Origin: an uncultured Treponema sp.
Lineage (GTDB): Bacteria > Spirochaetota > Spirochaetia > Treponematales > Treponemataceae
Assembly: GCA_945877425.1 (NCBI GenBank)
Contig: CAMCRZ010000003.1
Span: 62,001-126,000 of the forward strand
Reading direction: 5' to 3'
Length of the DNA: 64,000 bases
The position numbers and the translations under genes are program-made. Under the pieces are notes generated by a model. It saw only the letters and a list, made by a program, of their open reading frames with translations. It had not been told where the DNA came from and made no database searches. Below are positions 44,992 through 51,630 of the stretch, piece after piece. The stretch's first letter is position 1; each line of letters opens with the position of its first letter.

Positions 44992-47340
44992 ATGCCAAAG
45001 ATTGAAGTAAACGAAAAATTATTCTGGAACTTACTTGGAAATAAATATGATTGGGATACTTTTGAAAAGAAACTTACTTTTGCTAAAGCCGAACTTGACG
45101 AAAAGCCTGATGAATCGGAAGCAGAAGATAAACGTGTAATAAAAATCGAACTTAATGATACAAACCGTCCTGATTTATGGTCAACTGGTGGCGTTACAAG
45201 ATGTCTTCGTGAACATGAAGGTGCAGCTCATTCAGATTACAGTAAATTTCTTTCTTCAAAGGGAAACTTAAAGGATACGGGAAATCGTGAAGCTTTTGTT
45301 GATGGCGCTCTTAAAAACATTCGTCCGTTTATGGTTTCCTTTGTTATTACAGGAAAAGCAATTGATGAACCTATGTTGATTGATATTATGCAGACACAGG
45401 AAAAGCTGTGCTGGAACTTTGGACGTAAGCGTAAAACTATTTCCATGGGCGTTTACCGTGCTGCTAATGTTAAGTGGCCTCTTCGTTTAAATGCAGTAAA
45501 TCCTGATGAGTTAAGTTTTCAGCCTTTGCAGGGAGAAAGCGTTCAGACTTGTCGTGAAATCGTAAAAAATCATCCAAAGGGAAAAGAGTACGGCTGGATT
45601 CTTGAAAATTTTGACAAATATCCTGTTTTGCAAGATGACAGCGGCGAAGTGTTAAGTCTTCCTCCTATTATAAACAGTGCAACTCTTGGTCAGGTTGAAG
45701 TTGGCGACAAAGAGCTTGTTGTTGAACTTACTGGTGACAATATGGAAAATCTTATGCTTGCTGCAAATATTGTTGCCTGTGATTTTTATGATGCCGGATA
45801 TGAAATTCTTCCTGTTAAAGTTCACCACGAATATGAAACTGGTTTTGGAAAAGATGTTGTTGCGCCGTATTATTATCAGCCTGTAACAAATGCAAGACTT
45901 TCTGCTGTAAATAAAAAACTTGGCGTTAAACTTTCAAAAGATGAAGTGTTAAAAGCCTTGAATCTTATGGGAAATTCAGTTGACGTTAAGGAAGAAAATG
46001 GTGACGTTACTTTTACAGTAAAACCTGCTCCTTACAGAAATGATTTTCTCCACGAAGTTGATGTTATTGAAGACGTTATGATTGGTCATGGTCTTGATAA
46101 TTTTGAACCGAAAGCTCCTTCTGATTTTACTATTGGCCGCCTTTTGCCGATTACGCTTTATTCTAGAAAAGTTAAGAATATTATGGCAGGACTTGGATAT
46201 CAGGAAATGATTTTCAACTATCTTGGTTCAAAAAAGACTTATATTGACAATATGGGAATTGATTCAAAGGATGTAATTGAAATTGCAAATCCTATGAGTG
46301 AAAATTATCAGTTTATAAGACCTTCCATTATTGCATCACTTTTTGAAGCTGAAGCTCAAAGTGGAAATGCTGTTTATCCGCACAAAGTTTTTGAAGTTGG
46401 AAAAGTTGCATTTATAGAGCCAAGCGAAAATACTGGAACTAAAACAATTCAGTCTTTGGGATTTTTAACTGCTTCAAATAATGCAAACTTTAACGATGCT
46501 GCTGCTGAAGTAAGTACGCTTCTCTATTACCTTGATCATGAATATAAAGTTGTAGAAACTAATGACCCTCGTTTTATTCCTGGTCGTCAGGCTGGAATTA
46601 TGATTAACGGAAAACAGGCTGGTATTTTTGGCGAAATTCATCCTCAAGTGCTGGAAAACTGGCAGGTAACTGTTCCTTGTGCTGCAGGTGAAATTGATCT
46701 TGAATATTTAATGGCTTGTGAACCAAAAGAACATTCCGATTTAACTGGAACTTCTGCTCCTAAATCTGATGATGGAAAAAAGGATGCTGCACCAAAGGCT
46801 GAACCTAAAAAAGAAGAGCCGAAAGTTCTTGAAGGAAATGATGCTGTTGAGCATTTTAACAAGTACATTGAGCTTCGTGTTGCAAAAATTTTAAGCGTTG
46901 AATGTAATCCTCAGGGCGACAAGCTTTATATTGAGCATTTGGATGATGGTTCTGGAACTGAAAGAATTATTCAGTCTGGATTGCGTCCTTATCTTAAAGA
47001 AGAAGAGCTTCTTGGAAAGCATGTAATTATTGCTGCAAATCTTGCTCCTCGTAAGATGAAAGGTGTTGAAAGTCACGGTATGCTTCTTGCTGCTGATTAT
47101 GAAGAAAACGGTGTTGAAAAAGTTGAACTGCTGACTGCTCCTTGGGCTGCTCCAGGAACTCTTGTTACTCTTGAAGGTAATGAAAACGCTGTAGAAAAGC
47201 CTGCAAAGATTGACATTGATCGTTTCTGCAAAATTGATTACAGGATTGTAGAAAAGCACGCTACTGCTGCCGGTAAAAATCTTGTTGCTGCCGGTAAATG
47301 CATTGAAACTGTTAAAACAATTAATGGTGAAATTTCATAA
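44992..47340 (+). CDS. pheT: Phenylalanine-tRNA ligase beta subunit (archaeal/eukaryotic-like) with C-terminal EMAPII/Arc1p-type tRNA-binding domain
   Basis: N-term MPKIEVNEKLFWNLLGNKYDWDTFEKKLTFAKAELDE...IELNDTNRPDLWSTGGVTRCLRE; Lys/Pro linker PKSDDGKKDAAPKAEPKKEEPK; C-term YIELRVAKILSVECNPQGDKLYIEHLDDG...RIIQSGLRPYLKEEELLGKHVIIAANLAPRKMKGVESHGMLLAA. Confidence 0.9.
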   Translation: MPKIEVNEKLFWNLLGNKYDWDTFEKKLTFAKAELDEKPDESEAEDKRVIKIELNDTNRPDLWSTGGVTRCLREHEGAAHSDYSKFLSSKGNLKDTGNREAFVDGALKNIRPFMVSFVITGKAIDEPMLIDIMQTQEKLCWNFGRKRKTISMGVYRAANVKWPLRLNAVNPDELSFQPLQGESVQTCREIVKNHPKGKEYGWILENFDKYPVLQDDSGEVLSLPPIINSATLGQVEVGDKELVVELTGDNMENLMLAANIVACDFYDAGYEILPVKVHHEYETGFGKDVVAPYYYQPVTNARLSAVNKKLGVKLSKDEVLKALNLMGNSVDVKEENGDVTFTVKPAPYRNDFLHEVDVIEDVMIGHGLDNFEPKAPSDFTIGRLLPITLYSRKVKNIMAGLGYQEMIFNYLGSKKTYIDNMGIDSKDVIEIANPMSENYQFIRPSIIASLFEAEAQSGNAVYPHKVFEVGKVAFIEPSENTGTKTIQSLGFLTASNNANFNDAAAEVSTLLYYLDHEYKVVETNDPRFIPGRQAGIMINGKQAGIFGEIHPQVLENWQVTVPCAAGEIDLEYLMACEPKEHSDLTGTSAPKSDDGKKDAAPKAEPKKEEPKVLEGNDAVEHFNKYIELRVAKILSVECNPQGDKLYIEHLDDGSGTERIIQSGLRPYLKEEELLGKHVIIAANLAPRKMKGVESHGMLLAADYEENGVEKVELLTAPWAAPGTLVTLEGNENAVEKPAKIDIDRFCKIDYRIVEKHATAAGKNLVAAGKCIETVKTINGEIS

Positions 47341-47456: not shown

Positions 47457-48638
47457 ATGAAAAAAAGAAGTGTAATATTTTTTGCCGGAATTCTTGCGGC
47501 TATAGTTTTATTTGTTTTAACAGGCGGATTTTTAAATAAATCTGATGCAGGCAAGAGCAATGTTTCTTACAAAGAGTTTTATGAATTTGTTGAAAAAGGT
47601 TACGTTAAGTCTGTTGTTATAAAATCAGATGAACTGGAGTTTGCTTTTAACGAAAAAGATTTTCCTGAAAAAGAAAAGTTTGCCGGGAAAAATCAAAGTG
47701 TAAGAAATCCACACTCGCCTGTTCTGGAAGAATATCTGCTTTTAAATAACGTAGACGTACAGACAGAAAAAGACAGCGGAGAAATCATTACAGGAATTCT
47801 AGACGCAGTTTTTTACATAATATTTTTCGGAATAATAATCATTGCATTCAGAAAATTCATTTCGCCAAACACGTTTAAAGTCGTTCATAATACTGGAAAA
47901 AAATTCAGTGATGTTGTTGGAATGGAATCTCTAAAAAAAGATATGCTTCAAATTATGGACATGATGAAAAATCCTGCTGAATACAAAAAGGCTGGAATAA
48001 GAATGCCAAAAGGAATACTTCTTGAAGGAAATCCTGGAAACGGCAAAACATTATTTGCAAAAGCACTTGCCGGAGAAGCAAAAGTTAATTTTATTCCTGC
48101 AAAAGCCACAGACTTTGAAAGTATGTTTATGGCAATTGGTCCTATGAAAGTTAAGCTGTTATTTAGAAAAGCAAGACGCCGTGCACCATGCATTGTTTTT
48201 ATAGACGAATTTGACGGCATAGGAACAAAGCGCAACTATTCTGGAAGTGCAATTGAAACAGAAAACACAAGAATTGTTACAGCCTTACTTAATGAACTTG
48301 ACGGATTTGAACCAAACAAAGGCATACTTGTTTTAGCCGCAACAAACAGCGTTTCAGCATTAGATGAAGCTTTGATTCGTCCTGGTAGATTTGATTCTAT
48401 AGTAAAAGTGCCTTATCCTGATGAACGTTCGTTAGTTTCGCTTATAAATATGTATTTAGGAACACAAAAGCTGGAAAGTAATATAACTACCGAATGGTTG
48501 GCAGCTAAATTCAAAGGATTTTCCTGTGCAAAAGTTGAAAGCGTAATAAACAAATCACTTTTAATAGCAAAAGAAAAAGGCAGACTAACGGTCGGTAAGG
48601 AAGATTTTGAATTGGCAGTAAAAAGCGTAAACGGCTGA
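47457..48638 (+). CDS. FtsH-like membrane AAA+ ATPase lacking the M41 peptidase domain
   Basis: N-terminal TM, extracytoplasmic segment SYKEFYEFVEKGYVKSVVI, second TM; Walker A LEGNPGNGKT, Walker B CIVFIDEFDGIG, SRH AATNSVSALDEALIRPGRFD; ORF ends after the AAA lid with no HExxH domain. Confidence 0.88.
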   Translation: MKKRSVIFFAGILAAIVLFVLTGGFLNKSDAGKSNVSYKEFYEFVEKGYVKSVVIKSDELEFAFNEKDFPEKEKFAGKNQSVRNPHSPVLEEYLLLNNVDVQTEKDSGEIITGILDAVFYIIFFGIIIIAFRKFISPNTFKVVHNTGKKFSDVVGMESLKKDMLQIMDMMKNPAEYKKAGIRMPKGILLEGNPGNGKTLFAKALAGEAKVNFIPAKATDFESMFMAIGPMKVKLLFRKARRRAPCIVFIDEFDGIGTKRNYSGSAIETENTRIVTALLNELDGFEPNKGILVLAATNSVSALDEALIRPGRFDSIVKVPYPDERSLVSLINMYLGTQKLESNITTEWLAAKFKGFSCAKVESVINKSLLIAKEKGRLTVGKEDFELAVKSVNG

Positions 48639-48764: not shown

Positions 48765-49862
48765 ATGAAAAATCAATACGAAATCGGTGAAATGATTGAA
48801 ACAAAAATTGTTGCTGTAAGCGGCGACACTATTTTTCTGGATCTTGGATTAAAAAGCGAAGGCATTCTTGATAAAGCTGAACTTGTTGACGAAAATAATA
48901 ATCTTTCCGTAAAAGAAGGCGACTTAATAAAAGTTTATTTTGTTGGAAATCAGCACGACGAACTTCATTTTACAACTAAGCTAAGCGGACAGAAAGCAGA
49001 CAAATCTGTTTTGGAAAATGCATTTAAAAGCGGAGTTCCTGTAGAAGGTCATGTTACTCAGGAAATAAAAGGCGGCTTTGAAGTTATGATTGGAACAACA
49101 AGAGCATTTTGTCCTTATTCGCAAATGGGATTCCGTCAGAAAAAAGAGCCTGCTGAATACATCGGTTCACACTTAACATTTAAAATCACAGAGTATAAAA
49201 ATGAAGGCCGCAATATCATTGTAAGCAACAGAATTATTCTTGAAGAACAGTCAAACGCTGAATTGGGAAAACTTGCACAGACACTTCAGGTTGGAGCAGT
49301 TGTAAAAGGAAAAGTTAAATCTATTGAAAGTTACGGTGCTTTTGTTGATTTAAACGGATTTCAGGCACTTCTTCCTATAAGTGAAATTTCTCATGTCCGC
49401 GTAACTGATGTGAATTCTGTTTTAAAAGTAGGACAAGAAGTTGAAGCTAAAATCATTAAAGCTGATTGGGAACACAAAAGAGTGAGCCTTAGCATGAAAG
49501 AGCTTGAAAAAGATCCTTGGGACAACATTGCACAAAAGTTTCCTGCCGGTATGGAAATTGAAGGCGTAATAAGCAGAGTTGCTGATTTTGGCGTATTTGT
49601 AAATCTTGCGCCTGCAGTTGACGGTCTTGTTCATATTTCAAAACTTAATGTTGAACGTAATACTAACTTGAAGAAAGTTTACAAAGCCGGAGATAAATTA
49701 AGCGTTGTAGTTGATTCAGTTGATGCACAGGAAAAGCGAATTTCCTTAAGTCCGGTTATTTCAAATCAGGAACAGGATGATGCAAAAGAGTATTTAGATT
49801 CTCATAAAGATGAAGATGACGGCCTTACTTACAATCCTTTTGCTGCACTTTTGAAAAAATAG
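48765..49862 (+). CDS. S1 RNA-binding domain protein (ribosomal protein S1-like)
   Basis: Repeated S1 units: GAVVKGKVKSIESYGAFVDLNGFQALLPISEIS; GMEIEGVISRVADFGVFVNLAPAVDGLVHISKL. Confidence 0.85.
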   Translation: MKNQYEIGEMIETKIVAVSGDTIFLDLGLKSEGILDKAELVDENNNLSVKEGDLIKVYFVGNQHDELHFTTKLSGQKADKSVLENAFKSGVPVEGHVTQEIKGGFEVMIGTTRAFCPYSQMGFRQKKEPAEYIGSHLTFKITEYKNEGRNIIVSNRIILEEQSNAELGKLAQTLQVGAVVKGKVKSIESYGAFVDLNGFQALLPISEISHVRVTDVNSVLKVGQEVEAKIIKADWEHKRVSLSMKELEKDPWDNIAQKFPAGMEIEGVISRVADFGVFVNLAPAVDGLVHISKLNVERNTNLKKVYKAGDKLSVVVDSVDAQEKRISLSPVISNQEQDDAKEYLDSHKDEDDGLTYNPFAALLKK

Positions 49863-49891: not shown

Positions 49892-50848
49892 ATGGTTAAA
49901 CTTAAGCGAATAAATTTTCTGATTTTAAGTGTAATAACGGTTGCCTGTATTTTTGCGTCTTTGATGGCAGGTTCAGTTAAAATTGATTTAATTGATTTAA
50001 TGACTGACGGCGAAAACTTAAGTAAAACTGTATTTTACAACTTGCGTTTGCCAAGAACAATTTTATGTGTTGAAGCTGCAGTTTTACTTTCTTTAAGCGG
50101 AACAATTTTTCAGCTCTATTTCAGAAATCCTTTAGCTGAGCCAGGCATAATGGGCATAAGTGCCGGTTCAACTTTAGGTGCAGTTTTATCATTTTACTTT
50201 GGTGCTTCGGTTTCTTTAGGTGCAGTTTCAGGTGCTTTACTTTCAGGCATTCTCGTTACAGTTTTAAGTGTTAAACTAAATAGGCTTTCTGCATCAGCTT
50301 TATTGCTTTGTGGAACGGCAGCAGGAACATTTTATTCTTCCCTGACATCAATTATTTTAACAACTGACTCAAAAAAGCTTGGCGTAATGTACCTTTGGAT
50401 GATTGGGAGTTTTAACGGAAGAGACTGGCAGCAAGTTGCAATGGTTACAGTTATGGGTACAGTTTCCGTGTTTATAGCAATAATCTGTGCCCGAAAGCTG
50501 GAGTTGCTTAACGGCGGTGAAGAAACAGCTTTTTCTTTAGGATTAAACGTAAAGCTTCTTAGAGCAGCGGTAATTACAAGCGGCAGTTTAGGTACGGCAG
50601 CAGCAGTTTGTGCAGGCGGAACTATAGGCTTTGTCGGTTTAATTGCACCGCATATTGCAAGAAAAATCTTTGGAGAAAAATCCGGAGTAATAATGGTTAC
50701 AGGCGCATTTACGGGTACAGTTTTACTTACTTTAAGCGACATTCTCTGCAGAACAGTAATTGCTCCTTCAGAAATGCCTGTTGGAATGGTTACAGCAGTT
50801 TTAGGCGTACCATTTTTTATTTCAATATTAGCGGCTAAAAATCGATGA
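49892..50848 (+). CDS. FecCD/BtuC-type ABC transporter permease
   Basis: YNLRLPRTILCVEAAVLLSLSGTIFQLYFRNPLAEPGIMGISAGSTLGAV; GTIGFVGLIAPHIAR. Confidence 0.92.
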   Translation: MVKLKRINFLILSVITVACIFASLMAGSVKIDLIDLMTDGENLSKTVFYNLRLPRTILCVEAAVLLSLSGTIFQLYFRNPLAEPGIMGISAGSTLGAVLSFYFGASVSLGAVSGALLSGILVTVLSVKLNRLSASALLLCGTAAGTFYSSLTSIILTTDSKKLGVMYLWMIGSFNGRDWQQVAMVTVMGTVSVFIAIICARKLELLNGGEETAFSLGLNVKLLRAAVITSGSLGTAAAVCAGGTIGFVGLIAPHIARKIFGEKSGVIMVTGAFTGTVLLTLSDILCRTVIAPSEMPVGMVTAVLGVPFFISILAAKNR

Positions 50849-51630
50849 GTAAAATTCTTGAAGTAAAAAATTTAACTGCAAAGTATGGTAACAGATTTAT
50901 TCTTAATGGTTACAGTTTTGATTTACAGGAAGGCGAATTTGTCTGTCTTGTAGGTCCAAACGGTTGTGGAAAATCTACGCTTCTAAAGACACTTTTAGGA
51001 ATTAAGGGTACAGACTTGTCTGTTTCAGGTACAGTTTTATGTAAGCAAGTGGATGTTTTACGATGCAGTAAGCGAAAAACCGTTGCGAGAAACATTTCTT
51101 ACTTAAGCCAGAATGAAACTTTTGCCTGGAATTTAAAGGCAAGAGATGTTGTTCTGCAAGGACGCTACTGTTACAGCGGAAATATTTTTGCTTATACAAA
51201 AGAAGATTATGCTGAATGTGAAAAAGCGTTTGCCTTTCTGGAAATAGATGATCTAAAAGAGCGTAATATTGCAGGTTTAAGCGGCGGCGAATTTCAGAAA
51301 GTAAGGATTGCCCGATGCATTGCACAGAATAGTTCCTGCATTTTACTTGATGAACCGCTTGGCTGCCTTGATTTTGGCTACGAAACAGATTTAATTACTA
51401 AACTGAAAGAATATTGCCGCAAAGAAAAAGCCGGAATTATAATGAGCGTTCACAATTTAAATCTTGCCTTTAGATTTGCAGATAAAATCCTTACTGTTGA
51501 TAAAAACGGCAGCTGTATAATGGGTACAGTTGAAGAAATTATGGATACAGATATTCTGGATGAAGTTTATAAGGTAAAGTTCAAAAAGTATTACAATCCG
51601 GAAGTGAAGGCAATGCAGCTGTACGTTTAA
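50845..51630 (+). CDS. ABC transporter ATP-binding protein (BtuD/FepC-like)
   Basis: Walker A GPNGCGKSTLLKTLLG; signature LSGGEFQKVRIAR; Walker B CILLDEPLG; 4-bp overlap with permease. Confidence 0.93.
   Translation: MSKILEVKNLTAKYGNRFILNGYSFDLQEGEFVCLVGPNGCGKSTLLKTLLGIKGTDLSVSGTVLCKQVDVLRCSKRKTVARNISYLSQNETFAWNLKARDVVLQGRYCYSGNIFAYTKEDYAECEKAFAFLEIDDLKERNIAGLSGGEFQKVRIARCIAQNSSCILLDEPLGCLDFGYETDLITKLKEYCRKEKAGIIMSVHNLNLAFRFADKILTVDKNGSCIMGTVEEIMDTDILDEVYKVKFKKYYNPEVKAMQLYV

Follow-up and report, generated by a model that had tools for sequence, protein, structure and literature searches.

In bacteria, the extraction of membrane proteins and their destruction are usually thought to be coupled in one machine, FtsH, in which the protease ring contributes to hexamerization. 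The linker between its membrane part and its AAA domain is flexible and permits the ring to tilt for substrate entry (PMC7949044, PMC10850787); deletion of ~20 linker residues from Aquifex FtsH abolishes proteolysis (PMC7949044), and in Pseudomonas FtsH2 the glycine content of the linker tunes the substrate range (PMC10850787). Membrane-extracting AAA proteins, Yme1 and AFG3L2 among them, carry aromatic residues in both pore loops (PMC7018516). Proteolysis-dead relatives of FtsH are already known, namely the plant FtsHi proteins: FtsHi1, 2, 4 and 5 retain a mutated M41 domain, and in FtsHi3 an inactive one has been relocated (PMC9020784, PMC11266112). In the open full-text literature, a scope outside which most subscription journals fall, we found no description of a bacterial FtsH-like family from which M41 is absent. 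Here we analyze such a family, starting from one gene in a 64,000-nucleotide stretch of DNA from an uncultured Treponema sp. ("the window").

Architecture of a short FtsH relative and its surroundings

An open reading frame on the + strand, with ATG at 47457 and a stop codon ending at 48638, encodes a product of 393 aa. These coordinates and the FtsH-like topology assigned in the preliminary description of the locus are confirmed by matches of the window protein to the Pfam families FtsH_ext (residues 11-104, 40.1 bits), AAA (residues 187-320, 119.3 bits) and, weakly, AAA_lid_3 (residues 345-385), as well as by two hydrophobic segments. Pfam, hydropathy and an AlphaFold2 model (mean pLDDT 90, 54-row alignment) together recover the N-terminal TM-FtsH_ext-TM-AAA architecture of FtsH, and the complete domain order is TM helix, periplasmic FtsH_ext, TM helix, AAA+ ATPase and lid. 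In a Foldseek comparison with the PDB, an E. coli FtsH model ranks first, followed by Ycf2-FtsHi motor chains from plants and algae and, further down, by AFG3L2 and bacterial FtsH ATPase domains. The features are as follows:

47457..48638, + strand: protease-less FtsH-like AAA+ ATPase, 393 aa (ORF; Pfam FtsH_ext and AAA; at least 80 homologous Treponema loci)
47472..47531, + strand: TM helix 1, ~residues 6-25 (Kyte-Doolittle peak 2.6; helix 2-21 in the AlphaFold2 model)
47532..47777, + strand: periplasmic FtsH_ext domain, ~residues 26-107 (Pfam PF06480, 40.1 bits; conservation)
Inside the FtsH_ext domain, + strand: family motif NPxSPxLxE, residues 84-92 (conservation)
47793..47849, + strand: TM helix 2, ~residues 113-131 (Kyte-Doolittle peak 2.56; AlphaFold2 helix 107-135)
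47850..47903, + strand: short rigid linker RKFISPNTFKVVHNTGKK, residues 132-149, 18 residues with ~1 Gly (145 short proteins vs 108 FtsHs)
48024..48050, + strand: Walker A EGNPGNGKT, residues 190-198 (K197 in 145/145)
48114..48155, + strand: pore loop 1 region FESMFMAIGPMKVK, residues 220-233 (F224 kept, G226 replaced by A)
48201..48218, + strand: Walker B IDEFDG, residues 249-254 (D250 and E251 invariant)
48231..48278, + strand: presumed pore loop 2 and next helix RNYSGSAIETENTRIV, residues 259-274 (Y261; type-II differences)
48378..48395, + strand: arginine-finger motif RPGRFD, residues 308-313 (R308 and R311 in 145/145)
48423..48635, + strand: AAA lid, residues 323-393, the last domain and the family end (column conservation; distance from D383)

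The protein had been described as ending at the AAA lid without the M41 HExxH domain, and this is a property of the whole family. Pfam finds no Peptidase_M41 in any of 54 aligned sequences, that of the window protein included, HExxH occurs in none of 144 relatives, as compared with HExGH in 108 of 108 full-length FtsHs, and all 145 aligned short-form sequences stop at the lid. Open frames of the family are as a rule ~380-430 aa long, and the median member has ~9 residues between D383 (in the lid) and its C-terminus, which indicates that the M41 domain was lost at a clean boundary. A frameshifted peptidase domain immediately downstream, the possibility raised at the outset against a true loss, was sought in all forward frames of the 126 bp upstream of the S1 gene (48765), and no M41 remnant was found there. 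The NCBIfam FtsH_fam model aligns to residues 16-391 with 273.5 bits, below its equivalog cut-off of 600 bits, as expected for a protein that misses the last third of FtsH. Among 35 genomes with both proteins, column conservation of the lid is 0.65 vs 0.89 in FtsH, and that of the AAA large domain 0.89 vs 0.94; weaker conservation of this kind would be expected of a lid that has no protease ring left to support.

An intact ftsH, whose existence elsewhere in the genome remained to be established from the window, is present. Searched with the short protein, the source genome (2.40 Mb, 42 contigs, 92% complete) yields a single other close relative, a 714-aa FtsH on contig C19 that carries FtsH_ext, AAA, lid and M41 (HETGH) and is ~41% identical to the short protein across the AAA region. 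It accounts for the only M41 domain of the genome and for one of its two FtsH_ext domains. The same genome also encodes a ClpX-type protein adjoining a ClpP-type one.

Genomic neighborhood analysis of 131 loci revealed no conserved operon or partner gene. The commonest flanking clusters, named by eye from sequence (MetQ-like lipoprotein, ZIP-like transporter, ABC-F-like protein), are each adjacent in at most ~11 loci, and the window neighbors recur seldom (pheT in 11 loci, S1 in 7). In 10 genomes from few clades the short gene lies 6-22 kb from ftsH; the intervening genes look unrelated in the single case read (L190).

The neighbors in the window have features of their own. PheT (44992-47340, + strand, 782 aa) comprises an N-terminal B1 domain, B5 and catalytic-like domains, and its EMAP/Trbp111-type tRNA_bind domain is C-terminal, after the core (residues 628-716); the usual place of this domain in bacterial PheT is the N-terminus. 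The gene at 48765-49862 (+ strand), found near the short gene in ~7 loci, has a product of 365 aa that is smaller than ribosomal S1 and contains at least three S1 RNA-binding repeats. Directly downstream of it, at 49892-51630 (+ strand), are genes for a FecCD-type permease and an ABC ATPase, which seem to encode an uptake system for iron or cobalamin.

ATPase residues, pore loops and the membrane-AAA linker

K197, D250, E251, the sensor-1 residue N297, R308 and R311 are the same in all 145 family members. The Walker A and B motifs, sensor 1 and arginine fingers expected of an active AAA+ ATPase are thus in place, and the short protein is probably one. Competence of the Walker and arginine-finger motifs had been proposed from the single sequence and gains the support of the whole alignment. 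The broader proposal of a protease-less FtsH paralog with a probably active ATPase stands as well, on family conservation, invariant catalytic residues, purifying selection (see below) and the presence of a separate intact FtsH.

The "altered pore loop" of the preliminary description needs to be qualified. The sequences it quoted are exact (FESMFMAIGPMKVK in the short protein vs FVEMFVGVGASRVR in FtsH of the same genome), but the substrate-gripping Phe is unchanged: F224 is found in 141 of the 145 short proteins, with Leu in the remaining four. Position 226, on the other hand, is Ala in 144/145 short proteins and Gly in 108/108 FtsHs. As read from the alignment, the loop is altered less than the earlier title implies, FVG having become FMA with changed flanks. 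In presumed pore loop 2, where Y261 is placed by homology, Tyr occurs in 145/145 short proteins, and Phe, Leu or Tyr across FtsHs. The FtsH stretch DEREQTLNQ is replaced by ETENTRIVTALLNE in the short family, and a type-II comparison of the two groups gives ~39 positions that are fixed differently.

A further change, on which the preliminary description was silent, concerns the linker between TM helix 2 and the AAA domain. It comprises 18 aa with ~1 Gly in essentially all of the 145 short proteins, vs a median of 32 aa and 8 Gly in 108 FtsHs. The flexible Gly-rich linker of ~20-30 aa, typical though not strictly defining of FtsH, is thus absent from the short family.

Distribution, selection and descent

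The truncated form is not peculiar to the window, and its conservation in relatives, suggested earlier as a check, is family-wide. At least 80 loci in species-representative genomes encode homologs with 56-68% identity to the window protein, all from entries titled Treponema, Treponemataceae, Spirochaetales or Spirochaetaceae. Of 200 genomes of the genus, 125 have the short form (counted by hand, taking matches with E < 1e-80), and it also occurs in four more genera of Treponemataceae (g110, g114, g119 and, with one occurrence, g106). Outside Treponemataceae, a sample of 198 genomes from the phylum contained no strong match, the other genomes giving only FtsH-type matches with ~32-43% identity. 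A degenerate DNA pattern for TDFESMFMA, which misses members with variant motifs, was detected within the class in 8 genomes out of 297, all of them Treponemataceae. In the genus of the window, one full-length FtsH is as a rule seen per genome; several sister genera (genomes G388, G391, G407, G422, G438 and others of Treponemataceae) have two, with HETGH and HEAGH-like motifs.

Searches of IMG/VR with the conserved patterns gave 0 matches that would point to a viral origin. A plasmid origin was rejected, as all plasmid matches are below 60% identity and those listed are annotated as FtsH-type genes; one named merely "AAA family ATPase" is ~600 aa long. We also rejected an assignment to the anti-phage IetA/IetS system: the PADLOC IetA model covers the AAA part only (113.8 bits), the NCBIfam score for IetA is 103.8 bits vs a cut-off of 510, and there is no conserved neighbor such as an IetS protease.

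The family is under purifying selection, with dN/dS of 0.06-0.23 in 25 listed pairs, each sequence being used once (a few of the loci represent the same organism in two collections). In a few relatives (G253, G250, G384, G303) an in-frame TAA lies inside the matched region; these stops may reflect recent decay or assembly errors, and they agree with the patchy presence of the gene.

A phylogeny built from the AAA region groups the short proteins in a single clade (SH-aLRT 100), which has a very long stem and is distinct from the two FtsH clades of spirochaetes. With ~4 changes per column to either side of the midpoint root, the stem is so long that long-branch attraction is possible and the parent FtsH clade is not readable. 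Mapped onto a tree of full-length FtsH from 81 genomes, presence and absence require 13 changes, of which well-supported branches force at least 10, and their direction (gain or loss) is not readable from this count; shuffled labels require ~27 on average, and the distribution is therefore clustered but patchy. Distances among the short proteins correlate with those of FtsH (Mantel r 0.60 in 35 genomes, 0 of 2000 permutations as high), which indicates largely vertical inheritance with exceptions.

Possible functions and relationship to known systems

As far as can be read from the sequences, the short protein is an intact, selected TM-periplasmic-TM-AAA-lid protein with the residues of ATP hydrolysis, a threading-type pore, a short fixed linker and no protease. 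Of the functions proposed in the preliminary description, "membrane unfoldase" is the best supported. We consider it an even bet that the protein is a membrane-anchored AAA+ unfoldase or dislocase, derived from FtsH or sharing its origin, that has shed M41. It would form a ring by itself in the inner membrane, and the short linker would keep the AAA ring near the bilayer; F224 and Y261 would grip membrane or membrane-proximal proteins and draw them through the pore, so that they are extracted from the membrane or unfolded. Instead of being cut on the spot, the product would be let go into the cytosol, where it could refold, be re-targeted or be degraded by another protease. Such an action would be like that of Msp1/ATAD1, on an FtsH scaffold. 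The more specific proposal of a stand-alone, homo-oligomeric inner-membrane dislocase, evolved from FtsH in Treponemataceae, with a stiff short linker and extraction without degradation as a counterpart of Msp1/ATAD1 or Ycf2-FtsHi, is held more tentatively, at somewhat below even chances. Several points speak against the dislocase reading. As the protease ring aids hexamerization of FtsH, a ring without it needs other stabilization; the short linker could give less access to folded substrates; no conserved neighbor among the 131 loci points to a substrate; and the proximity to ftsH in 10 genomes might reflect some connection with FtsH.

That connection also bears on the alternative that survives best, although we regard it as unlikely: a non-proteolytic subunit in mixed FtsH hexamers, or an FtsH regulator, so that protease-less subunits tune degradation. 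Plastid FtsH paralogs form hetero-hexamers (PMC3339871), the short protein retains the periplasmic FtsH_ext domain and shares its genome with one full FtsH, and in 10 genomes with the short gene this gene lies 6-22 kb from ftsH; the Mantel correlation fits too, though vertical descent alone gives the same. Set against this are a linker ~14 residues shorter than that of FtsH in essentially every member, many group-specific substitutions within core AAA motifs, the gaps that missing protease domains would open in the protease ring, and the lack of the gene in many near-complete genomes whose FtsH is the same. Together with the relaxed lid and the complete set of ATPase trans residues of its own, these observations somewhat disfavor the hetero-hexamer regulator of the preliminary description.

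Less probable still is a dedicated translocation motor on a membrane complex, like Ycf2-FtsHi, serving one client, with a role in biogenesis and not in quality control. After E. coli FtsH, the fold is matched best by Ycf2-FtsHi chains, and plastid non-proteolytic FtsH relatives drive import (PMC8042743, PMC11266112). The pore-lining motifs of the short family are nearly invariant and its periplasmic domain is variable, as would fit one client or partner, but the pore motifs of FtsH are likewise very conserved and this therefore gives no pointer to a single client; moreover, no conserved partner gene is found near the 131 loci, and patchy presence fits poorly with an essential machine. We judge it improbable, too, that the protein is an extraction partner in trans, passing dislocated substrates to FtsH, Lon or ClpXP: the anatomy is compatible and the genome encodes FtsH and the ClpX-type and ClpP-type pair, but this differs from the dislocase reading in the fate of the substrate only. 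That the gene is a non-functional ftsH copy, truncated or in decay, as the missing M41 and the in-frame stops of four relatives might suggest, is refuted for the family by the low dN/dS of the listed pairs; invariant catalytic residues, monophyly and occurrence in well over a hundred genomes at species level leave this reading hardly any probability.

The short protein resembles bacterial FtsH in the TM-FtsH_ext-TM-AAA-lid order, the ATPase motifs and the pore Phe; it differs in the absence of M41, the linker (18 vs 32 aa), the change of FVG to FMA, the replaced DEREQTLNQ stretch and its separate long-stemmed clade. With plant and algal FtsHi and the Ycf2-FtsHi motor it has in common an FtsH-derived membrane AAA+ module without proteolysis and a close fold. 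The likeness to plant FtsHi drawn in the preliminary description thus applies to the action, as Ycf2-FtsHi ranks high among the fold matches, and does not extend to the anatomy: the hallmark of FtsHi pseudo-proteases is an inactivated M41 that is still present, whereas in the short protein the domain is wholly absent, and Ycf2-FtsHi is a eukaryotic hetero-complex whereas the host here is a bacterium. Msp1/ATAD1 likewise forms a membrane-anchored AAA ring without protease (in the short protein the ring is predicted), with a short TM-AAA link and aromatic pore-loop residues; however, Msp1 has one TM helix, no FtsH_ext and a pore loop 2 that resembles katanin/spastin (PMC7018516), and we claim no orthology. 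Pseudomonas FtsH2 shares a glycine-poor, stiffer membrane-AAA linker (PMC10850787), but it has kept the protease and its linker is longer.

Many gut-dwelling Treponema possess, besides a normal FtsH, a short sister that may pull proteins from the membrane without itself degrading them. Such a bacterial relative of FtsH, conserved, with its motor intact but its protease gone, would split extraction from destruction; the family offers a natural test of the roles of the FtsH linker and protease ring in assembly and substrate entry, and a likely bacterial parallel to the plastid FtsHi motors and Msp1.
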